Positions 33,645 to 46,672 of a stretch of 64,000 nt of DNA are shown piece by piece. The translations under genes were made by a program, and so were the position numbers. The stretch covers positions 379,501 to 443,500 of the forward strand of contig NZ_FUYX01000002.1 of NCBI RefSeq assembly GCF_900168195.1. Reading direction: 5' to 3'. Numbering within the stretch: position 1 is the first letter of the stretch; every line of letters begins with the position of its first letter. The notes beneath the pieces are model-generated. The model was given only the letters and a program-made list of their open reading frames with translations. It was not told where the DNA came from and did not search any database. This stretch comes from Allobosea thiooxidans. Its GTDB lineage: Bacteria > Pseudomonadota > Alphaproteobacteria > Rhizobiales > Beijerinckiaceae.

Positions 33645-34922
33645 ATGCAGGCAACGCGCCGTTCTTTCATGCGCATCGGGTTCACCGCATCGGGGGTGCT
33701 GGCGCTCGGGGTGCCGGCCGTGCTCGGCCAGGCCAAGCCGCGGGTGGTCGTGATCGGCGGCGGCGCCGGCGGCGCGACGGCCGCTCGCTACCTCGCCAAG
33801 GATTCCAACGGCGCGATCGCGGTGACGCTGGTCGAGGAGAACGAGGTCTACCAGACCTGCTTCCACTCGAACCTCTTCCTCGGCGGGTTCAAGAGCTATG
33901 CCGACATCACGCATCGCTATGACGATCTGGCGAGGAAGCACGGCATCGCCGTCGTGCGGGCGCGTGCAGAGCGGATCGACCGCGACAAGAAGGAGGTCGT
34001 GCTCTCGACCGGTCAGCGCCTGCCCTATGACCGGCTCGTCGTCGCCCCGGGCATCGACCTGAAATACGATTCGGTGCCCGGCTGGTCGAAGGAGGCCGAG
34101 GAGGCGATGCCCCATGGCTGGAAGCCCGGCCGGCAGACGCAGCTCATCCGGCAGAAGCTCGACGCCGTCCCCGATGGCGGGCTCATCGTCATGGTCGCGC
34201 CGCCCAATCCCTATCGCTGCCCGCCGGGCCCCTATGAGCGCGCCTCGATGTTCGCCCATGTGCTGAAGAAGACGGGCCGGGGGAACACCAGGATCGTGAT
34301 CCTCGATCCCAAGGAGAGCTTCTCCAAGCAGGGCACCTTCCAGGCCGCCTGGGAGCAGCATTACGGTGCGATGATCGAATGGCTCGGGCCGAAGATCCAT
34401 GACGGGGTCAAATCGGTCGATCCGAAGACCAACACCGTGGTGACCGGCTTCGAAACCTACAAAAATGCCGCCCTCGTCAACGTCATCCCCGCGCAGATGG
34501 CGGGCGAGATCGCGCGGCTCGCCGGCCTCGCCCCGGCCGGAGGCTACTGCGCCATCGATCCCGCTTCGATGCGTTCCGCGGTCGACCCCGCGATCTTCAT
34601 CCTCGGCGATGCCTGCATCGCCGGCGACATGCCGAAATCGGCCTTCTCGGCCAACAGCCAGGCGAAGGTCGCCGCCATGACGATCCGTGGGGAGCTGACC
34701 GGCGCCCGGACCTTCCCGGCCCGCTACGTCAACACCTGCTGGTCCCTGGTGGAGACCGACGACGCGATCAAGGTCGGCGGTCGCTACGAGGCGAAGGACG
34801 GCAAGATCGCGGCGACCGAAACCTTCGTCTCCCAGCCGGACGAGGCGGCCGATCTGCGCAAGGCGAACCAGGCCGAGAATATCGGCTGGTACGAGGCTAT
34901 CTCGGCGGACATGTTCGGCTGA
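33645..34922 (+). CDS. soxF: Flavocytochrome c sulfide dehydrogenase flavoprotein SoxF
   Basis: A 425-residue Tat-exported (TRRSFMRIGF) FAD protein. The Rossmann glycine motif VIGGGAGGATAA is at 36-47 and Cys72 in EVYQTCFHSNLFLGG matches the cysteine that binds FAD covalently in FccB. It oxidises sulfide and passes electrons to a c-type cytochrome, probably the product of the gene at 32700. Length and C-terminal sulfide-dehydrogenase domain fit the family. It lies in the sox operon, 52 bases after the DsrE-like gene. Confidence 0.88.
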   Translation: MQATRRSFMRIGFTASGVLALGVPAVLGQAKPRVVVIGGGAGGATAARYLAKDSNGAIAVTLVEENEVYQTCFHSNLFLGGFKSYADITHRYDDLARKHGIAVVRARAERIDRDKKEVVLSTGQRLPYDRLVVAPGIDLKYDSVPGWSKEAEEAMPHGWKPGRQTQLIRQKLDAVPDGGLIVMVAPPNPYRCPPGPYERASMFAHVLKKTGRGNTRIVILDPKESFSKQGTFQAAWEQHYGAMIEWLGPKIHDGVKSVDPKTNTVVTGFETYKNAALVNVIPAQMAGEIARLAGLAPAGGYCAIDPASMRSAVDPAIFILGDACIAGDMPKSAFSANSQAKVAAMTIRGELTGARTFPARYVNTCWSLVETDDAIKVGGRYEAKDGKIAATETFVSQPDEAADLRKANQAENIGWYEAISADMFG

Positions 34923-34989
34923 CCCGCCCGTTTTCCGCCGGCGCGGCCAGGGGCCGCGCAGGTATTCCATCAACCGTCAGAGGACCTCG

Positions 34990-35376
34990 ATGAAGCTTCC
35001 GATTGCCGCCGCTGCCGTGACGCTGGCCTTGTTCGCCGCTCCCGCCTTCGCGCAGGACATCGCCGCCGGCGAGCGCTCCTGGAACAAGTGCCGGGCCTGC
35101 CACCAGCTCGGAGAGAACGCGAAGAACGGCGTGGGCCCGCATCTGAACGGCCTGTTCGGCCGCCATACCGGCGAGGTCGAGGGCTACAGCTATTCGAACG
35201 CCAACAAGGGCGCGAACATCACCTGGGACGAGGCCGTCTTCGCCGAATACATCAAGGATCCGCGGGCGAAGATCCCGGGCACGAAGATGGTCTTCGCCGG
35301 GATCAAGAACGACAAGGAAATCACCGACCTCACCGCCTTCCTCAAGCAGTTCGGCAAGGACGGCAAGAAGATGTGA
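34990..35376 (+). CDS. Small class I cytochrome c (c2/c550 type)
   Basis: A 128-residue protein with a signal peptide (to about Ala21), haem motif CRACH at 34-38, and Met100 in PGTKM. It ends the sox operon. It matches closely the cytochrome beside sorA (17226-17612), sharing GYSYS, TWDEA and AFLKQF segments. It probably carries electrons from SoxAX, SoxCD or SoxF to the oxidase. Confidence 0.85.
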   Translation: MKLPIAAAAVTLALFAAPAFAQDIAAGERSWNKCRACHQLGENAKNGVGPHLNGLFGRHTGEVEGYSYSNANKGANITWDEAVFAEYIKDPRAKIPGTKMVFAGIKNDKEITDLTAFLKQFGKDGKKM

Positions 35377-36083: not shown

Positions 36084-36851
36084 TCAGGCCATCACCAGCC
36101 CGCCATCGACATGCAGCGTCTGGCCGGTGACGAAGCCGCTCCAGTCGCTGGCGAGGAAGAGCACGGGGCCGGCGATGTCGGCTGGTGTCGCGATGCGGCG
36201 CAAGGGCGTCTGTGCGATCAGCGTCTCGCGTACCGCCTCGGGCGTCGCCTCGCTCGCCTGCGTCGGATAGACCAGCCCCGGCGCGACGCAGTTCACCCGG
36301 ATGCCGAGCGGACCGAGTTCGGCGGCGAGGTTGCGGCTGAATCCCACCAGAGCTGCCTTGGCGGTGGTGTAGTCGTGATAGGGGATGCTCGGTCGGGTCA
36401 CGAGATCGCTTGCCAGGTTGACGATGCTGGCGCCCGTGCGGCGCTGGAGCAGCGGCAGCATCGCCCGGCTGACCGTGTAGGCCGCCTTCACCGCCCCCTC
36501 GAACTGCTGGCCATAGGCCTCCCAGGGCGTTTCCCAGAAGCGGGCGCGGTTGTCCGGGTCGAAGCGATAGGGCGCGAAGGCATTGTTGACGACGACATCG
36601 AGCCGGCCGACCTCTTCGGCGATGCGTGCGGCCATGGTGCCGACCGCTTCCGCCGAGGTCACGTCGGCAGCGATGGCGAGCGCCTCGCCGCCGAGGCCGC
36701 GGCATTCGGCGACGACAGCTTCGGCCGCTTCTGCGTTCGTGAGATAGTTGGCGACGACGATGCCGCCCTCGGCCGCGAAGGCCTTCGCGATCGCTGCGCC
36801 GATGCCGCGGCTCGCGCCGGTGACGAGGATGGCCCGGTCGCGGAACTTCAT
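36084..36851 (-). CDS. Short-chain dehydrogenase/reductase (FabG-like) of the TPP-riboswitch operon
   Basis: A 255-residue SDR with cofactor motif TGASRGIG (11-18), NNA motif (VVNNAFAPY), catalytic Ser (NLASDLV) and YxxxK (YTTAK). It is the last gene of the six-gene operon and overlaps the binding-protein gene by 4 bases (ATGA), with AAGGAGGG as ribosome site. SDRs reduce aldehydes or ketones with NAD(P)H. In this operon it could reduce the aldehyde from the LuxC-like enzyme to an alcohol, or convert another oxo group; the substrate is unknown. Confidence 0.82.
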   Translation of the reverse strand: MKFRDRAILVTGASRGIGAAIAKAFAAEGGIVVANYLTNAEAAEAVVAECRGLGGEALAIAADVTSAEAVGTMAARIAEEVGRLDVVVNNAFAPYRFDPDNRARFWETPWEAYGQQFEGAVKAAYTVSRAMLPLLQRRTGASIVNLASDLVTRPSIPYHDYTTAKAALVGFSRNLAAELGPLGIRVNCVAPGLVYPTQASEATPEAVRETLIAQTPLRRIATPADIAGPVLFLASDWSGFVTGQTLHVDGGLVMA

Positions 36852-37840
36852 GGCGCGCCCTCCTTCTGCGGGAGGAGGTCGCTCTTCACGACGGCCTTCA
36901 TGTCGATCTGGCGGGCGATCAGGCCGAGGCTGCGGAAGGTGTCCGCGCCTTTCTGCAAGGCCTCGAGATCGAAGCGGCCGAGGCCCTCGCGCTCGGTCGT
37001 CGCAGAGACGCTCGAAGCGTTGCGCAGCTTGATGATCTCGAGATTGACGGCCTCGTCCCGGCCGTTGATGGCGCGGGTGACGGCGATGCGCGCGGCTTCC
37101 TCGGGCTTGGCGATCATCCAGGCGGCGGAGTCGCGATAGGCGGCGAGGAAGCGCTGCAGCAGCGGCCTGTTCTGCTCGTAATAGCTCTCCTTCACGACGA
37201 AGATGTCGCTCGGCAGGTTGAGCTGGTCGCGGACCTCGATGACGTTGGCCTCGCCCAGTCCCTTGGCGCGGGCGACGAGCAGGCCGGTATCGGTCGCGGC
37301 GGTGGCGTCGACCTGGCCCTGCATCAGCGGCGCGAAGTTGAGCAGGCCGGTGGGCTGGATGGTGACATCCTTCTCGCCCAGACCCACCTGGTGCAGCAGC
37401 ACGAGCAGGTTCTGGTAGGTGCCGCTGGCGAGGCTGTAGACGCCGATGCGCTTGCTCTTGAGATCGGCGGCGGAGCGGATGCCGCTGCTCTTCAGCGCGA
37501 CGACGTTGAAGACGTTCTGCGGATAGATGTTGTAGATCGCGACGAGCTTTTCGCCCTTGTCGAGCGCGAGATAGAGCGCGGCCGGGTCGGTGAAGGCGAT
37601 GTCGGCCTGCCCCGCGATCAGGGTCTGGAGCGCGGCGCCGCCGCCATTGCCGGGCACATAGTCGAGCGCGATGCCCTTGGCCTTGAAGAAGCCCTTGTCC
37701 GGTTCCGCGAGCAGGTTGGTGATCTCGCTGATCGGCTGGCTCCAGCCGGCGACGGTAACCTTGTCGAGCGACTGGGCCGCGGCGGGCGCAGCAACGAGCA
37801 GCGACAGGGCAAGCAGGAGGAAGGCGCGCAGGGCGGGCAT
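36848..37840 (-). CDS. NMT1/THI5-type ABC substrate-binding protein
   Basis: A 330-residue exported binding protein (signal MPALRAFLLLALSLLVAAPA then AAQ), NMT1/THI5 domain: DKVTVAGWSQPISEITNLLAEPDKGFFKAKGIALDYVPGNGG and the DIAFTDPAALYLAL block. Related proteins bind thiamin pyrimidine compounds (ThiY), but also sulfonates and nitrate. The TPP riboswitch upstream favours a thiamin-linked ligand. It is encoded 5 bases after the permease. Confidence 0.82.
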   Translation of the reverse strand: MPALRAFLLLALSLLVAAPAAAQSLDKVTVAGWSQPISEITNLLAEPDKGFFKAKGIALDYVPGNGGGAALQTLIAGQADIAFTDPAALYLALDKGEKLVAIYNIYPQNVFNVVALKSSGIRSAADLKSKRIGVYSLASGTYQNLLVLLHQVGLGEKDVTIQPTGLLNFAPLMQGQVDATAATDTGLLVARAKGLGEANVIEVRDQLNLPSDIFVVKESYYEQNRPLLQRFLAAYRDSAAWMIAKPEEAARIAVTRAINGRDEAVNLEIIKLRNASSVSATTEREGLGRFDLEALQKGADTFRSLGLIARQIDMKAVVKSDLLPQKEGAP

Positions 37841-37845
37841 GGGGG

Positions 37846-38595
37846 CTAGCCTTTCGAGAAGCGGTGCAGGACGCGGCGCTCGAGCAGGCGCACGGCCTCG
37901 TAGAGCAACATTCCAAGGGCGGTGATGACGATGAAGAGCGCGAAGATCAGACTCGAATCCATCACGCTCTGGGCGGCGATGATCGAAGCGCCGAGGCCGA
38001 TGCGACCGCCGATGAACTCGCCGACCACCGCGCCCACAAGCGCTAGCACGACCGCGACGCGCAGGCCCGCCATGATGACGGGCAGGGCCGCCGGAAGCTT
38101 CAGGCGCAGCAGGGTCTGGAGGCGGCTCGCGCCCAGCATGCGGAAGAGTTCGCGCCGCGCCGGATCGACCTCGCTCACGCCTGTCAGCGTATTCTCCATC
38201 AGCGGGAAGAAGCAGATCAGAGCGGTGATCACGACCGTCGGCGTCATGCCGAAGCCGAACCAGATGATGAAGAGCGGCCCGAGCGCGAGTTTCGGCACCA
38301 GCTGGCTCGCCAGCACATAGGGCCGCAGCAACCGGCTGAGCGCCGGGAATTCCGCCAGCAGGATGCCGACTCCGAGGCCGACGACGGCGCCGATGGCAAG
38401 GCCCAGCGCCATCTCCGTGGCCGTGACGGCGAGATGCGGCCAGAGCCGGCCGGTGGCGATCTCGCTCCATAGCGTGGCCAGTACCGCCGAGGGCGGCGGC
38501 AGGACGAGAGCCGACACGCCGCCGAGGCGGCACCAGGCCTCCCAGCCCGCGAGCAGAGCGACGAGCAGCAGGAGCGAGGGCAGCCGCGCGCTCAT
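37846..38595 (-). CDS. ABC transporter permease (SsuC/ThiX-like)
   Basis: A 249-residue BPD_transp_1 permease with six hydrophobic helices and the EAA-like loop RRELFRMLGASRLQTLLRLKLPAALPVIMAGLRVA. It forms the membrane part for the NMT1-type binding protein and the ATPase encoded on either side. It overlaps the ATPase gene by 4 bases. Substrate specificity follows the binding protein; thiamin-related import is inferred from the riboswitch. Confidence 0.87.
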   Translation of the reverse strand: MSARLPSLLLLVALLAGWEAWCRLGGVSALVLPPPSAVLATLWSEIATGRLWPHLAVTATEMALGLAIGAVVGLGVGILLAEFPALSRLLRPYVLASQLVPKLALGPLFIIWFGFGMTPTVVITALICFFPLMENTLTGVSEVDPARRELFRMLGASRLQTLLRLKLPAALPVIMAGLRVAVVLALVGAVVGEFIGGRIGLGASIIAAQSVMDSSLIFALFIVITALGMLLYEAVRLLERRVLHRFSKG

Positions 38596-39389
38596 GCTGC
38601 CGGCCTCTGGCTTGCGGCGGTGCCGGCCTCGCCATCCATCGCGTCGCGCAAGTCGCGGCAGGCGGCGATGAAGGAGGGCGCATAGCGGATGTCGCGGTGC
38701 CGCGGGCGCGGCAGCTCGATCCGGCGCCTGTGGGCTAGCCGGCCGGCTGCCATCACCGCGACCTTGTCGGCCAGATAGACGGCCTCGCCGATGTCATGGG
38801 TGACGAAGAGCGCGGTGGTGCCGTTGAGCGCGCAGAGCCGCAGCAGATCGTCCTGCAATTCCTCGCGTGTTAGCGCGTCGAGCGCGGCGAAGGGCTCGTC
38901 GAGCAGGAGCAGGTCCGGGTTGCCGATCAGCGCGCGGGCGAGGGCGACGCGGCTCTGCTGGCCGCCGGAAAGCTCGGCCGGTCGGCGCGTGGCGAAATCG
39001 GCGAGGCCAATGCGGGCGAGCAGATCGCGCGCGGCATCGCGGTCGGCGGCCGTGACGCGGCGCCTCAGCGAGACCGGGAGGAGGACATTGTCGAGCGCGC
39101 TCAGCCAGTCGAGCAGGGTCGGAGCCTGGAAGACGAAGCCGGCATGAAGGCTCGGGCCATGCAGCGCCTCGCCGCTGATGCGGATGGCACCTTCGCTCGG
39201 GCCGAGCAGGCCGGCAGCGAGCTTCAGCAGCGTGGTCTTGCCGCAACCGCTGCGGCCGAGAAGGCAATGGATCTCGCCGCGCGGGATCGCCCAGTCGACG
39301 CCGTCGACGATGGCGGGGTCGTTCGCGCCGTAGCGGTAGCGGACCTGCTCGATCGCGACGAAGCCAGGAGTGGAGCGATCAGTCGACAT
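38592..39389 (-). CDS. ABC transporter ATP-binding protein (SsuB/ThiZ-like)
   Basis: A 265-residue nucleotide-binding subunit. Walker A GRSGCGKTT at 45-53, signature LSGGQQSRVALARAL near 138, Walker B LLLLDEPFAALD near 158, and the switch His (VTHDIGEAV). It overlaps the LuxC-like gene by 11 bases upstream and the permease by 4 bases downstream, so it is inside a single operon. Type matches the nitrate/sulfonate/thiamin-precursor group. Confidence 0.88.
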   Translation of the reverse strand: MSTDRSTPGFVAIEQVRYRYGANDPAIVDGVDWAIPRGEIHCLLGRSGCGKTTLLKLAAGLLGPSEGAIRISGEALHGPSLHAGFVFQAPTLLDWLSALDNVLLPVSLRRRVTAADRDAARDLLARIGLADFATRRPAELSGGQQSRVALARALIGNPDLLLLDEPFAALDALTREELQDDLLRLCALNGTTALFVTHDIGEAVYLADKVAVMAAGRLAHRRRIELPRPRHRDIRYAPSFIAACRDLRDAMDGEAGTAASQRPAA

Positions 39390-40827
39390 AGGGCGCGAAC
39401 CCTTCCGCCGCGGCCTCGGCGCTCTGCTCGATCTCGGTCAGGGTGACGAGGTCGAGCAGGCTGAAGCGGCCGTCATGGTGCCAGCCGGCTTCCGGCGCCG
39501 TCATGCGGCCGAGCGGCGCGATGCGGCTGACGCCGATTTCGCCCAGCTGCTGCGCGAGCCGGAACAGCCGCTCCGGCGCCGCGGCGACCCCGGCTGTCTG
39601 CAGGAAACTGCGCTGGGGGGCGACCAAGGCGGGAACGTCGTCGAGGCTGTCGAGCGCAACCAGCTTGAGCGTGCGGTTCAGGCCCGTCGGGCTCAGGGCT
39701 TCGGGCGTCTCGACATGGACGACGCTCCAGGAATCCGAAGGCTCGCCCAGGAGCTCCGCCGCCCCCTCCATCGCGCAGATCTCCTGCGCGCCGCGCCATG
39801 TGGCGATCGACGCGGCTTCGCCCTGCGAGAGGGCGCGGCGCGGATGGTGGGGGGCGAGGGCGGCGAGTTCCTGCGCGACATGGCGGGCGAATTCGGCCGG
39901 CGCGACGCGCCCGCCGCGCTCGACGAAGAGCAGTTGCGGCGAGTAGCAGCCTTGTTGCTCGTAGCGGGCGACGTCATGAGCGGCGAGCCGCGCCAGCGCC
40001 GGAGCCTTGCGGCTGTCGAGCGCTTCGCGCCCGATCACGCCGAAGCCGATCTTGTGGCCATGCGGCAGGAAGCGGGTGGTGATCGGCAGTTTTGCACGCA
40101 GTGCCGTCAGCGTATCGTTGCCGCCATAGGCCATGACGGTGTCGGCTTCACGCAGGAAGACAGGCTCGGCGGCCGCTTCCCCGCCTTTCCACCAGGTGAT
40201 GGCGAGGCATTCGCCGATCTCCGGGTCGATCTCGGCGAGGAGGCTCGCGAACCAGCTGGCCGTCAGCGGCTCGGCCGAGGCGAGCTTGCCGATGCTGCCC
40301 GCCTTGACCAGCAATCCGCAGATCAGGCTCCAGAGCGAGAGCGCCGGGACATTGCCGGCCCAGACATGCAGCAACAGATCCGGGCCATGGGCGCAGAGAT
40401 AACCGCCCTTGGGTGTCGGCTGGAAGCCGTCGAGCATGGCGGGATTGGCGAAATCCTCCGCCAGGAAGCGCAGCAGCTGCGGGCGCCGAAAAGTCTTGAG
40501 ATAACCGGTCAGCCCGAGCCGGACCGTCTCGCGGTCATAGCCGGTGACGATCGGCAGCAGATGCTCGGCCTTGCGGCGCAGCGGGTGTGTGCGGTCGAGC
40601 AGGCGCGCGATCGTGGCGTCAATCGCGGCGGCGATCCGGGCGACCGGCATCTGCTTCAGCCGGGTGCGGGCGTTGCCGCGCACATGCGTGCAGAGCGCGG
40701 CCGCCTGTGCCTCGTCCAGTTCCGGCAGTGCGATGATGGCGCTCTCGCCCCAGGCGTGGTGACTGACCTCGCGCCAGCGCAGCGCCTCGCGGCTCAGGCC
40801 CGGCAGATGGCCCGCATGCTCGATCAC
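39379..40827 (-). CDS. LuxC-like acyl-CoA/acyl-enzyme reductase
   Basis: A 482-residue protein of the LuxC (PF05893) family. The active Cys294 lies in RYEQQGCYSPQLLFVE, matching the thioester-forming cysteine of LuxC, and the GPDLLLHVWAGNVPALSLWSLICGLLVKAGSIGK segment is the NADPH-binding region. LuxC reduces an activated acyl group to an aldehyde. GTG at 40827, directly after the luxE stop (40832), is chosen because upstream residues read as Arg-rich non-coding sequence. It is the second gene after a TPP riboswitch and no lux light genes are near, so it is not bioluminescence. Confidence 0.83.
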   Translation of the reverse strand: MIEHAGHLPGLSREALRWREVSHHAWGESAIIALPELDEAQAAALCTHVRGNARTRLKQMPVARIAAAIDATIARLLDRTHPLRRKAEHLLPIVTGYDRETVRLGLTGYLKTFRRPQLLRFLAEDFANPAMLDGFQPTPKGGYLCAHGPDLLLHVWAGNVPALSLWSLICGLLVKAGSIGKLASAEPLTASWFASLLAEIDPEIGECLAITWWKGGEAAAEPVFLREADTVMAYGGNDTLTALRAKLPITTRFLPHGHKIGFGVIGREALDSRKAPALARLAAHDVARYEQQGCYSPQLLFVERGGRVAPAEFARHVAQELAALAPHHPRRALSQGEAASIATWRGAQEICAMEGAAELLGEPSDSWSVVHVETPEALSPTGLNRTLKLVALDSLDDVPALVAPQRSFLQTAGVAAAPERLFRLAQQLGEIGVSRIAPLGRMTAPEAGWHHDGRFSLLDLVTLTEIEQSAEAAAEGFAPYVD

Positions 40828-40831
40828 GGTC

Positions 40832-41908
40832 TCAACCTCGCGCCGCAGCCAGGAACTCGGCCACGGCGACCGAGCAGCCCTTCGAATCCTCGCCGTCGAC
40901 GCGACCGAGCAGCTTGAAACCACCCGGGACGATCTCGCCGGCATCCTCGGTCAGGATCGCCGAGACGCAGTTGAAATGGGCGAGGTCGTGATGGACGATC
41001 ACGCCGCGCTCGCCTTCGGGAAGGTCTACGCCGGTCAGCGGGTCGACGACGCGGCTGCGGATCCAGTGTGGGCCGGATTTCACGGAGGGGCAGACCGCAT
41101 TGCCGTCGTCGTAGAGCTGGGAGCTCAGCTCGGTCATCCCGTACATGTTGATGCAGGATGAGCGCGGCACGCCGAAGGCGGCGGCGAGCCCATCATAGAA
41201 CTCGTCGGGACCGAGCTCGCGCGACTGGCCTTTGAAGCCGCCGGTGTCGAGGATGAGGCTGCCCTCCGGCAAGGCGAAGCGCCGGCCGCTCGCGGCGAGC
41301 GCATCCAGCACGGGAACGAAGGAATAGCTCGCGCCGAGCAGGGCATAGGGTTCGCCGCTGGCCTCGGCACGTTCGAGCGCCGGCAGCAGCCGGTCGAGGT
41401 CGAGACCGGTCGCGTTGATGAAGGTCTCGGAATCCGGCGTGCCGCATTCGCGCTTGGCGAGCGAGAGATAGGTGGCGAGCGAGGAGTTCGGCAGCTCCGT
41501 CTCGTCGGGGAAGAGGATGCCCATCCGGAGGCGCTCCCGGCCGCGCATGAAGCGCTTGCGGAAATTGCGCAGCATCGAGCGCTTCCAGACGGCGAGCGTC
41601 GGGTGATAGCTGCGGCCGCGCACGCCTTGCGTCGTGCCGCTCGTCATGAACACGCGCTCGGCCTGCTCCGGCGGGCTGCAGCTCAGCGTCAGGTCCTTGA
41701 AGGCGGTGATCGGCACGGCCGGGATATCGCGCCAGCGCCTGACCGAGAGCGGCGTGCGGCCGCGCTGCAGGGCGAAGCGCCTATAGGGCTCGTTGTTACG
41801 GAACTGATAGGCGAAGACTTTCAGCGCCATCGCCTCGAATTCGGCTTCCGACGCATCGGGAAGCGCGATGAACGCCAGCAGCGCCTCGATGATCTCGGCT
41901 TGCGTCAC
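40832..41908 (-). CDS. LuxE-like acyl-protein synthetase
   Basis: A 358-residue protein of the LuxE (PF04443) family. The adenylate motif MTSGTTQG is at 88-95, and a C-terminal GCS (Cys about 345) matches the acylated cysteine of LuxE. LuxE activates a carboxylate with ATP and passes the acyl group to a cysteine for LuxC. It is the first gene after the TPP riboswitch, and starts with GTG at 41908 preceded by GGAG (an in-frame GTG is also at 41917). Its acid substrate is unknown; thiamin-derived carboxylates are suggested by the regulation. Confidence 0.82.
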   Translation of the reverse strand: MTQAEIIEALLAFIALPDASEAEFEAMALKVFAYQFRNNEPYRRFALQRGRTPLSVRRWRDIPAVPITAFKDLTLSCSPPEQAERVFMTSGTTQGVRGRSYHPTLAVWKRSMLRNFRKRFMRGRERLRMGILFPDETELPNSSLATYLSLAKRECGTPDSETFINATGLDLDRLLPALERAEASGEPYALLGASYSFVPVLDALAASGRRFALPEGSLILDTGGFKGQSRELGPDEFYDGLAAAFGVPRSSCINMYGMTELSSQLYDDGNAVCPSVKSGPHWIRSRVVDPLTGVDLPEGERGVIVHHDLAHFNCVSAILTEDAGEIVPGGFKLLGRVDGEDSKGCSVAVAEFLAAARG

Positions 41909-42012
41909 TGTGCCCACTCCGTCCTGACGCTCGCGGGCAAGCCGGTAGCGTCGATCGCGACAGGATCACGGGCGCAAGCTGGAGTCAGGGCCGTATTGGC
42001 CGCATGTCCCGC

Positions 42013-42116
42013 ATCCCTACGCCGGCATGATCCGGATCAGGTTCGTAGGGTCACAGCGTCGCCGGGCTCGAAAGCCCAGCCGGCGGAATCTCAGCCTCCT
42101 AGCGAGGCCCCCCTGG
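42013..42116 (-). ncRNA. TPP riboswitch (THI element)
   Basis: Read on the minus strand, the aptamer is complete: GGGGGGCC and AGGAGG stem 1, the conserved CUGAGA (42089-42094 in plus coordinates), a variable stem with a GGGCU-UUCG-AGCCC hairpin, then ACCUGAUCCGGAU, AUGCCGGCGUAGGGA. These are the thiamin-pyrophosphate-binding THI box residues. It lies 104 bases upstream of the LuxE-like gene, with no other gene between, so it controls the six-gene operon. The leader after it has no clear terminator, and CCTGAC/GTCAGG near the ribosome site could form a translation-blocking stem. Confidence 0.95.
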
Positions 42117-42184
42117 GAACGGCCTTTACGTGGGGTTTGGCAGGGTGCCTTGTCAAGCGGGCGGGTGCGGCGGGCTGGCCGCCT

Positions 42185-43363
42185 TCACAAGCGCGGGGTC
42201 TCATAAAGCCGGCGGCCGCCGACGCTGATCTCGACCTGCTGGAGATAGGGCCGCAGCGCCGCCGGAGCGACCGCGATGCCGAGGCCCGGCGCCTCCGGCG
42301 CCGCCACCTGCCCCTGCGCGTCGCGCTCCAGATGATTGGCGGCGATCGCGATGGCGAGCGGTTTCGGCATGGCCGGATATTCGCAGATCTCATGATCGCC
42401 GAAGCCGGCATAGGGCTGCAGCGAGGCGGACAGGGCCAGATGCGAGGTGAAGGTGTGGTTGACGAAGGTCACGCCCTTGGCGACCGCGTAATCGGCTACC
42501 GCCTTGGATGGGCCGATGCCGCCGATCCGGCCGCAGTCGATCTGGACATAGCCGATGCCGCCATAGTCGATGAGCTGCTTGGCCATGGACTCGTTATGGG
42601 CGCCTTCGCCGCCGGCCAGGCGGACTTTCGCGCTGCGCCCGGCGAGGGCGCCATAGGCTTCGAGCGCGCTGGCGTGGAAGGGCTCCTCGAACCAGAGCAC
42701 ATTCGCCTTCTCCATGGCGGGCAGCCGGGCGGCGGCGCGCTCGACATCCTCGATGAAGATCTGGCCGGTATCGACCAGCAGGATGCCGTCCTGTCCAAGC
42801 CCCTCGCGGGCAGCGACGAAATGCTCGGCATCGGCCGCGACGCTGCCGCGGCCGATCGGCCCCCAGCCGAATTTGGCCGCGCGGAAGCTGCGGCTGCGGG
42901 CATCGCGGGCGCGTTCGAGGGTCTCCTGCGGCGTGTCGCCGAACAGGACCGAGGCATAGGGCGTCTTGGGATGGCTTTTGTCGTAGCCGAGCAGGCGCCA
43001 GACCGGCTCGGAGCGCATCTTGCCGAGGATGTCCCATAGCGCCATCTCGACGCCGGAGAAGGTGTGCGGCGCCTGCAGCAGGTCCATCGAGTTATAGGCG
43101 ACCGCGGAGGCGATGCGGGCTATATCCTCAGGGCTTTCAAGCGTCTGACCGAGCACGGAATCGGCCACGGGGCGGCAGACGCCATGCGACATCGGGCAGA
43201 TGAAGGCGGCGATGGAGGGGAGTGGTGCCGCCTCGCATTCGCCCCAGCCGACATGGCCGCCGGCGGCGACCCTGACCAGCAGCGCATCCTGGCTGCCATC
43301 GGCCTCGTCGGTGACGACGGGCATGGCGAGATAGAAGAAATCGACGGCCTCGATTCTGGGCAC
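42185..43363 (-). CDS. Enolase superfamily enzyme, mandelate racemase-type
   Basis: A 392-residue MR_MLE protein. It has the KFGWGPIGRG strand with the catalytic Lys, metal ligands in LLVDTGQ, FEEPF and GGEGAH, and His in VNHTFTSH. Such enzymes remove a proton next to a carboxylate, for dehydration or racemisation of sugar acids or dipeptides. It starts with GTG at 43363 behind GAGGAGAAG. A paralogue with the same K-x-GWGP-x-GR strand is at 50329-51528. The gene is the last of a minus-strand run with an M81 peptidase and ABC genes. Confidence 0.82.
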   Translation of the reverse strand: MPRIEAVDFFYLAMPVVTDEADGSQDALLVRVAAGGHVGWGECEAAPLPSIAAFICPMSHGVCRPVADSVLGQTLESPEDIARIASAVAYNSMDLLQAPHTFSGVEMALWDILGKMRSEPVWRLLGYDKSHPKTPYASVLFGDTPQETLERARDARSRSFRAAKFGWGPIGRGSVAADAEHFVAAREGLGQDGILLVDTGQIFIEDVERAAARLPAMEKANVLWFEEPFHASALEAYGALAGRSAKVRLAGGEGAHNESMAKQLIDYGGIGYVQIDCGRIGGIGPSKAVADYAVAKGVTFVNHTFTSHLALSASLQPYAGFGDHEICEYPAMPKPLAIAIAANHLERDAQGQVAAPEAPGLGIAVAPAALRPYLQQVEISVGGRRLYETPRL

Positions 43364-43374
43364 GGGTCTTCTCC

Positions 43375-44862
43375 TCACAGCTCGTAGATCGTGGCGCGAG
43401 GCGCGAAATCGACGCCTTCGTCAAGCGGGTAGATCGGCCGGGCGCAGATGGTGTGGCCGAGGCTCTTCAGGTTTGCGGAGGTGGCGCCTGGCGCGTCGAT
43501 GTTGAAATTCCGCGCGCACCACTGGTCGAACATGTGGAATTCGGTGTGGGGCGACTTCACCACGATCAGGTCGAAATCGGTCGGGTCGAGGCCGTTGGCG
43601 TAGTACATTGCGCGGTCGAACAGGCTGACCGAGCGGCTCATCACCACAACGGTGACATTGTCCCAGGTCAGCACCGCGGTCGGCCCGGCACTCAAGGGTG
43701 CCTTCATCGTCTCCAGCGCGGCTTCGCCATCGGAGAGCAATTTGACCTTAGCTTTCACCTTCATCGGCGGGAAGCGTGCGGGATCGATCGAGCCGCCGAG
43801 CGTGACCTCGATCGTCGCGCCGACGCCGGCCTTGTGCGCGGCGGCGGCAGCCGGCGCATCGACGATCTGGGCCAGCACCCGCTTGCCGTAGCCGGCCGCG
43901 CGCAAGGCGGCGAGGATCGCGTTGCTGTCGCCGGACGCGCCGGAAGAGGTCGCATCGGCGGCATCGGTGAAGATCACCGGACCGTCGATGCTGCGGGCCT
44001 GGGCGATGGCGCGGTCGAGCGGGACGAGCTTGCCCTGCATGCGGAAGCGCAAGGGCCAGAACTCCTCAGCCAGTCGGATGGCCTCGCGCTCGGCGCTCGC
44101 CTTGTCGCCGTCGGTGAGGATCAGCACCTGCGAGCAGAGTTCCGGCACGTCGGTGAAGGGGTTGCCGATCATGATGCCGGCGGCGAGCGCCCGGCCTTCC
44201 TCCTCCAGTCGGCGGCATTCCGCCAGCAACTCGCCATAGCAGCCGGTCTTGGTGATGAGCTCGTCGCCGCGCACGAGCGCGGGGATGACGACCCGCGCCG
44301 CGACGGGCCTGACCCCGCCATCCATCAGCTTCAGCAGCAGCTCGGCTGCGCGCCGCCCGGTATCGGCGAAATCGACATGCGGGTAGGTCCGATAGATCGC
44401 GAAGCCATCGACCTGCCGCAGCATCCGGTCGGTCAGGATGCCGTGCAGATCGAGCGAGATGACGATCGGAATGCCGGGCCCGGCGTGCTCGCGCAGCTTC
44501 TCCAGCAGATAGCCTTCCGGGTCGAGCTCGCCATCGGCGCCCATCGCGCCATGCAGCGAGACATAGATGCCGTCGATCCCGTCGAGTTTCGCGAAGATCG
44601 CGGCGAGGATTTCTTCGGAGAGCTTCTTCCAGCCTTCGGCCGAGAGCAGGCCGGCGCTGCCGGCGCGGGCGCAGATCGTCGGCACGATCTCGATATCGGG
44701 CCGCGCCTCGAAGACGGCGAGCGCGCCGCCGAGTTCCTGGTTCTTGCCACGCTGGTCGTAGAGACCGTCGCCATGGCGGATCAGGAAGTTCTCGTAATGC
44801 GACGGCAGCGGATTGAAGGAGGAGATCTCCTGCTTGCAGTCGGCGATCAGGATGCGCTTCAT
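43375..44862 (-). CDS. M81 family metallopeptidase (MlrC-like)
   Basis: A 495-residue protein with the MlrC layout: N-terminal DUF1485 domain starting MKRILIADCKQEISSFNP, SLHGAMGADGELDPEGYLL, and DLHG as zinc-ligand block, then the C-terminal MlrC_C domain (DAADATSSGASGDSNAIL). MlrC hydrolyses small peptides in microcystin breakdown; most relatives act on unknown small amide compounds. It lies 18 bases after the permease operon and 12 before the enolase gene. Confidence 0.85.
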   Translation of the reverse strand: MKRILIADCKQEISSFNPLPSHYENFLIRHGDGLYDQRGKNQELGGALAVFEARPDIEIVPTICARAGSAGLLSAEGWKKLSEEILAAIFAKLDGIDGIYVSLHGAMGADGELDPEGYLLEKLREHAGPGIPIVISLDLHGILTDRMLRQVDGFAIYRTYPHVDFADTGRRAAELLLKLMDGGVRPVAARVVIPALVRGDELITKTGCYGELLAECRRLEEEGRALAAGIMIGNPFTDVPELCSQVLILTDGDKASAEREAIRLAEEFWPLRFRMQGKLVPLDRAIAQARSIDGPVIFTDAADATSSGASGDSNAILAALRAAGYGKRVLAQIVDAPAAAAAHKAGVGATIEVTLGGSIDPARFPPMKVKAKVKLLSDGEAALETMKAPLSAGPTAVLTWDNVTVVVMSRSVSLFDRAMYYANGLDPTDFDLIVVKSPHTEFHMFDQWCARNFNIDAPGATSANLKSLGHTICARPIYPLDEGVDFAPRATIYEL

Positions 44863-44879
44863 CGGGCGGCTCCTACAGG

Positions 44880-45728
44880 TCAGAACTTCAGGCGGGGGTC
44901 GAGCACGTCGCGCAGGCCGTCGCCGAGAAGGTTGAGGCCGAGCACGCAGACGATGATCGCGAGGCCCGGGAACACCGTGATCCACGGCGCCTCGCGCATG
45001 AAATCGCGGCCTTGCGCGATGATCGAGCCGAAGGAGGCGGCCGGCGGCGGCGGGCCGGCGCCGACGAAGGAGAGCGCAGCCTCGGCCAAGACCGCGATGG
45101 CGAAGACATAGGTCAGCCGCACGATCAGCGGCCCGGCCGCGTTGCGCAGCACATGCTTGAACAGGATCGTCATTTCGCCGACGCCGATCGAGCGGGCGGC
45201 GGAGACGTATTCCTGTTCCTTTTCGAGCAGGACCGAGGCGCGCACGATGCGGGCCGTATGCGGCGTCGTGGCGATGGCGAGCGCGATCACGACATTGGTC
45301 AGCGAGGCGCCGAGCACGGCCGAGACGACCATGGCGAGCACGATCGAGGGGAACGCCATCAGCGCGTCCATGATCCGCATGATGGGCTGGTCGAGATGAT
45401 AGAAGAAGCCGGCGATCGCGCCGCTCAGCGTGCCCGCGATGCCGGCCAGCACCACGGTGAAGGCGCCGATGGCGAGCGAGATGCGGGCGCCTATCATCAC
45501 GCGCGAGAGGATGTCGCGGCCGAAATGATCGGTGCCGAACCAGTGCACGGCGCTGGGCGCCGCGAGCCGGGCGCGGACATTGCTGCGCAGCGGGTCGAAG
45601 GGCGAGAGCAGGTCGGCGGAGAGCGCGACCACGACCATCAACAGCACCAGCGCCGCCCCGATCACGAAGGAGCGGTTGCGCAGCAGGCGCCCCCAGAGGG
45701 CGCGGCCGACGAGTGGCGTACCTTGCAT
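44880..45728 (-). CDS. Peptide-type ABC permease (DppC-like)
   Basis: A 282-residue permease. N-terminal oligopeptide-permease extension (RNRSFVIGAALVLLMVVVALSADLLSPFDPL), HWFGTDHFGRDILSRVMIGARISL and the EAA loop AARSIGVGEMTILFKHVLRNAAG. It forms a pair with the DppB-like permease, overlapping its gene by 1 base. No ATPase gene is in this locus. Confidence 0.87.
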   Translation of the reverse strand: MQGTPLVGRALWGRLLRNRSFVIGAALVLLMVVVALSADLLSPFDPLRSNVRARLAAPSAVHWFGTDHFGRDILSRVMIGARISLAIGAFTVVLAGIAGTLSGAIAGFFYHLDQPIMRIMDALMAFPSIVLAMVVSAVLGASLTNVVIALAIATTPHTARIVRASVLLEKEQEYVSAARSIGVGEMTILFKHVLRNAAGPLIVRLTYVFAIAVLAEAALSFVGAGPPPPAASFGSIIAQGRDFMREAPWITVFPGLAIIVCVLGLNLLGDGLRDVLDPRLKF

Positions 45729-46672
45729 CAGGCCAGCCTCACCCGCGGATCGACCACGGCGTAGAGGATGTCGACGACGAGATTGATCGCGAGATAGACG
45801 ACCGCAAGGAAGAGCAAACCGCCCTGCAGAACCGGGAAATCGCGCGAGGCGATGGCGCCGACGATCAGGCGGCCGACGCCCGGAATGGAGAAGACCTGCT
45901 CGACGATGACGGCACCGCCGAGCAGCGCGCCGGAGACGATGCCGATCACGGTGAGGATCGGGATCATCGCGTTCGGCAGCGCGTGGCGCAGCACGACATG
46001 GAGCTTGGCCAGCCCCTTGGCATCGGCGGTGCGGACATAGTCCTGGCTGAGCGTGTCGAGCATCGAGGCGCGCGCCATGCGGGCGATGAAGCCGACCTGC
46101 ACCAGTCCCAGCGTCAGCGCCGGCAAGACCATGCCGCGCAGCCATTGGCTCGGGGATTCGAGGAAGGGCGTGAAGCCGCCGCTCGGCAGCCAGCCGAGCG
46201 AGACGGCGAAGACCAGCACCATGACGAGGCCGAGCCAGAAATCCGGGACCGAGAGCCCGAGCAGAGCCGTGGTCATCACCGCCTGATCGGGCCAGCGGTT
46301 GTGGTTGACGGCCGCGATAATGCCGGCGGCGACACCGAAGAATACGGCGAAGGCGAGTGCCAGCGCTGCCAGCGAAAGCGTGACCGGCAGGCGCTCGATC
46401 AGGGCTGCCGTCACCGAACGGTTGAGCAGGATCGACTGGCCGAGATCGCCGCTGAGGATGCGCCCGTACCAGCCGAACATCTGCTGCGGCAGCGACAGAT
46501 CGAGACCTAGCGCGCTGCGCAGCTTGGCGACCTGCTCGGGCGTCGCAGAGGCGTCGAGAAAGGCCGCTGCCGGATCGCCCGGCACCAGCCAGATCAGCGC
46601 GAAGGACATCAGCGAGACCAGGACGAGCACGAGAAAGGCGCCCGCGAGCCGGCGGATCAGGAAATGTCCCAT
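45728..46672 (-). CDS. Peptide-type ABC permease (DppB-like)
   Basis: A 314-residue permease. It has the DppB N-terminal GHFLIRRLAGAFLVLVLVSLMSFALIWLVPGDPAAAF pattern, LPALTLGLVQVGFIARMARASMLDTLSQDYVRTADAKGL as EAA loop, and a C-terminal AINLVVDILYAVVDPRVRL. It works with the DppC-like and DppA-like genes flanking it. The 212-base gap upstream contains a palindromic repeat. Confidence 0.88.
   Translation of the reverse strand: MGHFLIRRLAGAFLVLVLVSLMSFALIWLVPGDPAAAFLDASATPEQVAKLRSALGLDLSLPQQMFGWYGRILSGDLGQSILLNRSVTAALIERLPVTLSLAALALAFAVFFGVAAGIIAAVNHNRWPDQAVMTTALLGLSVPDFWLGLVMVLVFAVSLGWLPSGGFTPFLESPSQWLRGMVLPALTLGLVQVGFIARMARASMLDTLSQDYVRTADAKGLAKLHVVLRHALPNAMIPILTVIGIVSGALLGGAVIVEQVFSIPGVGRLIVGAIASRDFPVLQGGLLFLAVVYLAINLVVDILYAVVDPRVRLA

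Follow-up and report, generated by a model that had tools for sequence, protein, structure and literature searches.

A six-gene operon in a 64,000-nucleotide stretch of the Allobosea thiooxidans genome (contig NZ_FUYX01000002.1, positions 379,501 to 443,500; hereafter the window) is here proposed to be a thiamin pyrophosphate (TPP)-repressed salvage system for 4-amino-2-methylpyrimidine-5-carboxylic acid, or a close pyrimidine acid, which it would reduce to hydroxymethylpyrimidine (HMP); we put the probability of this reading at roughly 60%. The genes lie on the minus strand behind a TPP riboswitch (THI box) and code, in this order, for a LuxE-like protein, a LuxC-like protein, the ATPase, permease and NMT1-type binding protein of an ATP-binding cassette (ABC) importer, and a short-chain dehydrogenase/reductase (SDR). 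At somewhat better than even odds, an oxidised pyrimidine acid of thiamin is retrieved and reduced to HMP by LuxE-LuxC and the SDR, a route that takes the place of ThiC in some lineages. The pyrimidine acid is favoured by the loss of thiC with retention of thiG, by the thiOSGF and thiW companions of related operons, by the nucleobase-type importer at some loci and by the ThiY-like fold of the binding protein. An earlier note on this DNA had read the operon as importing a carboxylated relative of thiamin under TPP control and reducing the acid, by way of the aldehyde, to an alcohol. The genomic evidence is in line with that frame; the note had made no choice among three candidate substrates, of which the pyrimidine acid is now preferred.

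When TPP is low, the riboswitch would permit expression of the operon, and the NMT1-type importer would take up the pyrimidine acid. The LuxE-like protein would then adenylate the carboxylate with ATP and load the acyl group on Cys348, from where it would move to Cys294 of the LuxC-like protein and there be converted to the aldehyde at the expense of NAD(P)H. Further reduction by the SDR would yield HMP, which could enter thiamin synthesis and join the thiazole made by ThiG. Cys348 and Cys294 are presumed to be the catalytic cysteines. The substrate, the three reactions and the direction of regulation are what we infer from gene content, gene context and predicted folds. The proposed acid is a known product of thiamin breakdown: the title of a 1964 paper, in the reference list of PMC7780320, gives it as a metabolite of thiamin in the urine of rats.

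The enzyme trio behind the THI box and its importers

The gene order is widely kept. When 84,980 species genomes were scanned for LuxE, 344 stretches proved to encode a relative, of which the best 80 were retained; LuxC follows LuxE at 80 of 80 loci, and an SDR is present at 76 of the 76 loci with enough sequence. The LuxE-LuxC-SDR trio is thus constant while the importer changes, and its composition fits a route from carboxylate through acyl thioester and aldehyde to alcohol. The recurrence of the gene order at 80 loci of other genomes, found in the co-occurrence search that the earlier note had called for, rules out a single-genome oddity and disposes of the possibility that the arrangement is unique to this genome. 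Carriers belong to the Alpha-, Beta- and Gammaproteobacteria and the Bacillota, including Bosea, Azorhizobium, Methylobacterium, Azospirillum, Pantoea, Erwinia, Enterobacter, Curvibacter and other Burkholderiales, Geobacillus, Desulforamulus and others, and the nearest named relatives of the window's LuxE are from Bosea (93% identity). In evenly drawn samples, the operon's LuxE was present in 7 of 385 genomes of Alphaproteobacteria, the window's genome among the seven, and in 11 of 398 genomes of Bacilli, a count that includes the Geobacillus that served as centre. When 44 LuxE sequences are placed in a midpoint-rooted tree, Erwiniaceae join Rhizobiales (support 99/98) within an otherwise alphaproteobacterial clade, a placement that suggests LuxE transfer between classes. 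LuxE relatives of at least 41% identity also occur in plasmid records of Pantoea, Azospirillum, Priestia, Niallia, a Pseudomonas and lactobacilli. The Priestia plasmid records (H29-H40) hold a second, distant LuxE-type gene as well (23-24% identity), annotated as LuxE family acyl-protein synthetase.

The THI box recurs as well. The window's riboswitch scores above the Rfam gathering threshold of 54.3 bits over the whole model, which bears out the aptamer that the earlier note had read on the minus strand, and no other Rfam family reaches its gathering threshold within the 64 kb window. A THI-box core pattern made for this analysis was searched up to 700 bases upstream of LuxE at 108 loci, among which are the genome of the window, members of its genus and a few loci fetched more than once, and was found at 92 of them. 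Eleven of the 16 pattern-negative loci were run through Rfam, with seven TPP matches (the other five were not run), which brings the count by either method to 99 of 108; a chance riboswitch match was set aside on that count. Among the 80 best loci, 68 were positive by pattern and four more by Rfam (72/80), and in a second set from bacilli a TPP match lies upstream of the operon at eight of nine loci run through Rfam. On a Niallia megaplasmid (L108, 5697-5993), two tandem TPP riboswitches precede thiW-SLC23-LuxE-LuxC-SDR. The window's 5.37 Mb genome has two TPP switches besides that of the operon, one just upstream of thiC (G000:C21) and a second that precedes a gene read as thiO, behind which thiG lies on the same strand (G000:C26). 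By sequence, the organism therefore has the marker genes of both the pyrimidine and the thiazole branch.

The importer is an NMT1 ABC system at most loci, an SLC23/NCS2 nucleobase-type permease at some, and absent from the neighbourhood at Pantoea-type and some alphaproteobacterial loci. An ABC binding protein was found at 62 of the 76 loci with enough sequence, and the SLC23 permease replaces the ABC importer at five (L104, L105, the Niallia locus L108, and the bacilli loci L136 and L139). A nucleobase carrier in the place of the importer suits a pyrimidine substrate. On Lactiplantibacillus and Levilactobacillus plasmids that differ in size, L104 (1390-6321) and L105 (2947-7878) share one TPP-SLC23-LuxE-LuxC-SDR unit, whose four proteins have identical accessions; this is a mobile vitamin cassette. 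In the window, the binding protein has both the NMT1/THI5 domain and the ThiY fold, and scores 114.8 bits with the SsuA subfamily model TIGR01728, below its cut-off of 163.5. Its predicted structure (mean predicted local distance difference test score, pLDDT, 87.9) is closest to 4nmy, a thiamin-bound binding protein, and then to 3ix1, a binding protein for formylaminopyrimidine (FAMP) (E 7.5e-22, TM scores 0.79/0.87, 18% identity), followed by a B. bronchiseptica protein and by SsuA and THI5 entries. An aminopyrimidine is present in the ligands of both top matches.

Both enzymes of the LuxE-LuxC pair are well above their Pfam cut-offs (24.9 bits for PF04443, 21 for PF05893), and their best solved relatives by sequence are the LuxE and LuxC chains of the complex 7xc6 (E 1.9e-16 and 5e-15). 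The LuxE-like protein contains the stretches SGTT, YGMTE and KGCS, and the LuxC-like protein the motif QQGCYSPQ; the KGCS and QQGCYSPQ motifs align with the cysteine motifs of 7xc6, and Cys348 and Cys294 are each invariant across 19 diverse sequences (LuxE residues are numbered on the 361 aa form from GTG 41917). Scores with the curated bioluminescence models are only 61 bits for LuxE (NF052244, cut-off 550) and 76.6 bits for LuxC (NF052251, cut-off 750). By these scores the pair belongs to the lux superfamily, in another family than bioluminescence LuxE and LuxC, and the idea of a lux operon remnant was set aside; a Pfam scan that covered 13 proteins of the window showed no luciferase (luxA or luxB). 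The predicted LuxE structure (pLDDT 82.3; four other models, 62-63) has as nearest folds PaaK and other enzymes that adenylate acids, among which several act on aryl acids; these neighbours are compatible with a small aromatic acid substrate, short of proof. The SDR scores 276.4 bits with NF006393, under the cut-off of 292, and its Y161 and K165 (YTTAK) are invariant across 19 sequences.

Thiamin genes beside the operon and in carrier genomes

At some loci the operon stands with genes of thiamin metabolism. At a bacilli locus (L138), a single TPP switch leads the series tenI-thiO-thiS-thiG-thiF-LuxE-LuxC-ABC-SDR, in which tenI and thiS were read by eye. At the Niallia locus, the two TPP switches are shared by thiW, which we take to be a thiazole importer component, with SLC23, LuxE, LuxC and SDR. 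As the companions at these two loci supply the thiazole, the pyrimidine would be left to LuxE-LuxC-SDR. Elsewhere, thiM lies 23 bases behind the SDR (L131), thiC directly upstream of the operon (L096) and a YkoE-type gene (PF09819) divergent from it (L135), which makes five of 97 loci with thiamin companions in a count that covers only genes met in the analysis, thiD, thiE and tenA not being sought.

The thiamin genes of carrier genomes point the same way. With thiG counted only as a near-full match (E <1e-90), the 94 distinct LuxE-positive genomes (three pooled sets, one genome, G120, present in two sets and counted once) comprise 77 with both thiC and thiG, 12 with thiG only, two with thiC only and three with neither. 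Within the window's genus (67 genomes), LuxE is present in 3/3 genomes with thiG only, 0/8 with neither gene, 2/12 with thiC only and 29/44 with both; the comparison of 3/3 with 2/12 gives a Fisher probability of 0.022, shared ancestry ignored. Genomes were also taken for 50 of the 80 loci, the 30 left out, mostly because the set was capped at 50, being 17 Bosea-titled, four Rhizobiales/Hyphomicrobiales and nine close relatives of others: eight have thiG only, three neither gene, none thiC only, and 39 both, one of these with a fragmented thiC. Among the 11 LuxE-positive Bacilli, one has thiG only and ten have both. At the level of gene content, the excess of genomes with thiC lost and thiG kept is the pattern of pyrimidine supply. 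One such genome (L098), a metagenome-assembled genome (MAG), is a single 4.15 Mb contig titled chromosome, so that draft gaps do not explain the absence of thiC there.

Further observations concern these genomes. L078, L089 and L094, all MAGs, carry LuxE-LuxC-SDR and a THI box, and the search for thiC and for a real thiG found neither in them. In the L082 genome, thiC (G121:C9:13605-14800) is split into four pieces that overlap and differ in frame, one of them containing a stop, and is either a broken gene or an assembly error. Thi4 was considered as a thiazole source for the thiG-negative genomes of the genus and set aside: it has matches in all 67 genomes, and those listed are weak and partial (E 1.6e-8 or worse, at most 128 of 235 positions covered), so that Thi4 does not explain the two LuxE-positive genomes with thiC and no thiG. 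Ten genomes of the genus have thiC, no real thiG and no LuxE (G061, G062, G063, G065, G069, G017, G004, G073, G086 and G011), with only partial weak Thi4 matches among the matches listed.

Weighing the substrate

Several observations weigh against salvage of a pyrimidine acid. Most carriers, the window's genome included, have thiC (79 of 94), so in most of them the operon would supplement ThiC and not stand in for it; in the Bacilli, thiC is present in 10 of 11 LuxE-positive genomes vs 197 of 398 in the whole sample, which gives no support for thiC replacement in that class. Two genomes of the window's genus (G034, 90% complete; G064, 99%) have thiC and LuxE without thiG, three other LuxE-positive genomes lack both genes, and several thiC-negative genomes are draft MAGs (for example G031, 92% complete). 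The thiM gene at L131 is also explicable by a thiazole substrate and is neutral between the two halves of the vitamin. The top fold of the binding protein binds whole thiamin, so the fold cannot separate the pyrimidine acid from a thiamin acid; sulfonate binders are also high among the matches, and NMT1 proteins serve many ligands. The fold matches of the LuxE model are general for adenylating enzymes, with 7xc6 missing among the 50 matches listed. The minimum free energy of the window's leader is ordinary (z -0.33), so that the aptamer call depends on the covariance model, and five loci (L082, L088, L093, L099 and L131) have no TPP match at the Rfam gathering threshold.

An acid of the whole thiamin molecule, with thiamin acetic acid as the foremost candidate, could be imported and reduced to thiamin by the same chemistry. 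Its merits are the thiamin-bound closest fold (4nmy), the three carriers without both thiC and thiG, and the title of a 1970 paper, in the reference list of PMC7575681, that presents thiamin acetic acid as a rat thiamin metabolite. Such a substrate predicts the operon in genomes that lack both genes, however, and none of the eight in the window's genus has it; of the 94 LuxE-positive genomes, 89 do have a real thiG. The SLC23 permeases are of nucleobase type, whereas thiamin acetic acid is larger and charged. We consider this substrate unlikely. Slightly lower still do we rate a carboxylate that is no thiamin fragment, such as a fatty or an aryl acid, handled under TPP control for a physiological reason or giving an aldehyde for use elsewhere. 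The LuxE and LuxC of bioluminescence act on fatty acids, and public plasmid records label the LuxE gene as long-chain fatty acid--CoA ligase or acyl-CoA synthetase; against these stand the conservation of the THI box across phyla, the thiamin gene companions at some loci, the ThiY/THI5-like fold of the binding protein and the scores far under those of the curated lux models. Least probable of all would be the thiazole acid 4-methylthiazole-5-acetic acid, reduced to hydroxyethylthiazole: the route is chemically the same, thiM lies directly behind the SDR at L131, and two carriers have thiC without thiG, but that expected combination occurs in only 2 of 94 LuxE-positive genomes and its opposite in 12, and the operon follows thiazole synthesis genes at L138 and shares TPP switches with thiW at L108.

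Operon features, significance and related systems

The features of the operon are collected in Table 1. All six proteins exceed their Pfam cut-offs, in the gene order that the earlier note had given, and neighbouring genes overlap by a few bases or are 4 bases apart. The likelier LuxE start is GTG 41908 (VTQAEII..), where most aligned orthologs begin, rather than 41917; LuxC starts at GTG 40827, and the start of the binding protein was taken at about 37852. Only short imperfect repeats were seen in the operon. The minus-strand region upstream of the riboswitch (42185-46672) codes for an MR/MLE enolase-superfamily protein, an M81 (MlrC-like) peptidase and an ABC permease, which probably form a catabolic cluster of their own. 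Close to the 3' end of the operon, on the plus strand (33645-35376), a flavocytochrome c sulfide dehydrogenase flavoprotein gene is followed by a cytochrome c gene.

Table 1. Riboswitch and genes of the operon, in positions of the window
Feature	Position	Strand	Match
TPP riboswitch aptamer (THI box), operon leader	41996..42124	-	RF00059 60.3 bits, E 2.5e-9, model 1-105
LuxE-like, putative carboxylate-adenylating/acyl-transfer protein, 358 aa from GTG 41908	40832..41908	-	PF04443 57.8 bits
LuxC-like, putative acyl-thioester reductase, 482 aa	39379..40827	-	PF05893 277.7 bits
ABC importer ATPase	38592..39389	-	PF00005 (ABC_tran) 113 bits
ABC importer permease	37846..38595	-	PF00528 (BPD_transp_1) 105.7 bits
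NMT1/THI5-type substrate-binding protein	36848..37852	-	PF09084 155.8 bits (scanned on 36848-37888)
SDR oxidoreductase, FabG-like, proposed aldehyde-to-alcohol step	36084..36851	-	PF13561 (adh_short_C2) 200.2 bits

Thiamin limits many microbial communities. If pyrimidine acid salvage is the function of the operon, the LuxE/LuxC pair would have a small-molecule, non-fatty-acid role, and oxidised vitamin B1 fragments would be a recycled resource in soils, guts and waters and on plants, with one more vitamer and gene set to count in B1 studies. Genomes called pyrimidine auxotrophs for want of thiC may then use an acid. The proposal also offers a testable substrate for a non-luminous LuxE/LuxC subfamily annotated as fatty acid ligases.

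No TPP-controlled LuxE/LuxC system came up in searches of the 5.39 million open-licence papers in PubMed Central, supplements aside, and the statement of the earlier note that no such system had been described holds within that literature. By word search, 'lux' does not occur in the main text of the 2013 TPP regulon survey PMC3766115, and it is likewise absent from two recent B1 studies (PMC12637900 and PMC12442306); in these two and in PMC10881298, 'carboxyl' is used only for the thiazole acid cHET or is absent. The sole open paper that joins LuxC, LuxE, thiamin and riboswitch, PMC3219970, has the lux genes as a reporter. Salvage of thiamin precursors is already known; the present enzymes and vitamer are not tied to it in the open literature searched.

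Parts of the operon resemble known systems. Like the LuxC-LuxE fatty acid reductase 7xc6, it has homologous LuxE and LuxC from adjacent genes, with aligned cysteine motifs (KGCS; QQxCxS); unlike it, it combines them with a TPP riboswitch, an importer and an SDR, and scores far under the lux equivalog cut-offs. The SDR is like OarX, a THI-regulated protein similar to 3-oxoacyl-ACP reductase that Rodionov et al. reportedly described in 2002, in being a FabG-type SDR under TPP control, a likeness by description only; the name oarX was not found in open-access papers. With the ThiXYZ/ThiY importer it shares an NMT1-type binding protein with the ThiY fold, ABC partners, TPP control and the logic of pyrimidine salvage (PMC5627462). 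It differs from the YlmB-TenA salvage of base-degraded thiamin in having a reductive LuxE-LuxC-SDR in place of YlmB and TenA, and its implied substrate is a carboxylic acid, not the amine or formamide of the YlmB-TenA/ThiY route. The CytX/PLUTO (NCS1) clusters for HMP transport are also nucleobase-type carriers recruited for uptake of the thiamin pyrimidine, and the absence of thiC was used as evidence for that function (PMC5874261); in contrast to these, the nucleobase-type carrier at the five loci that have one is SLC23/NCS2 and sits with reductases.

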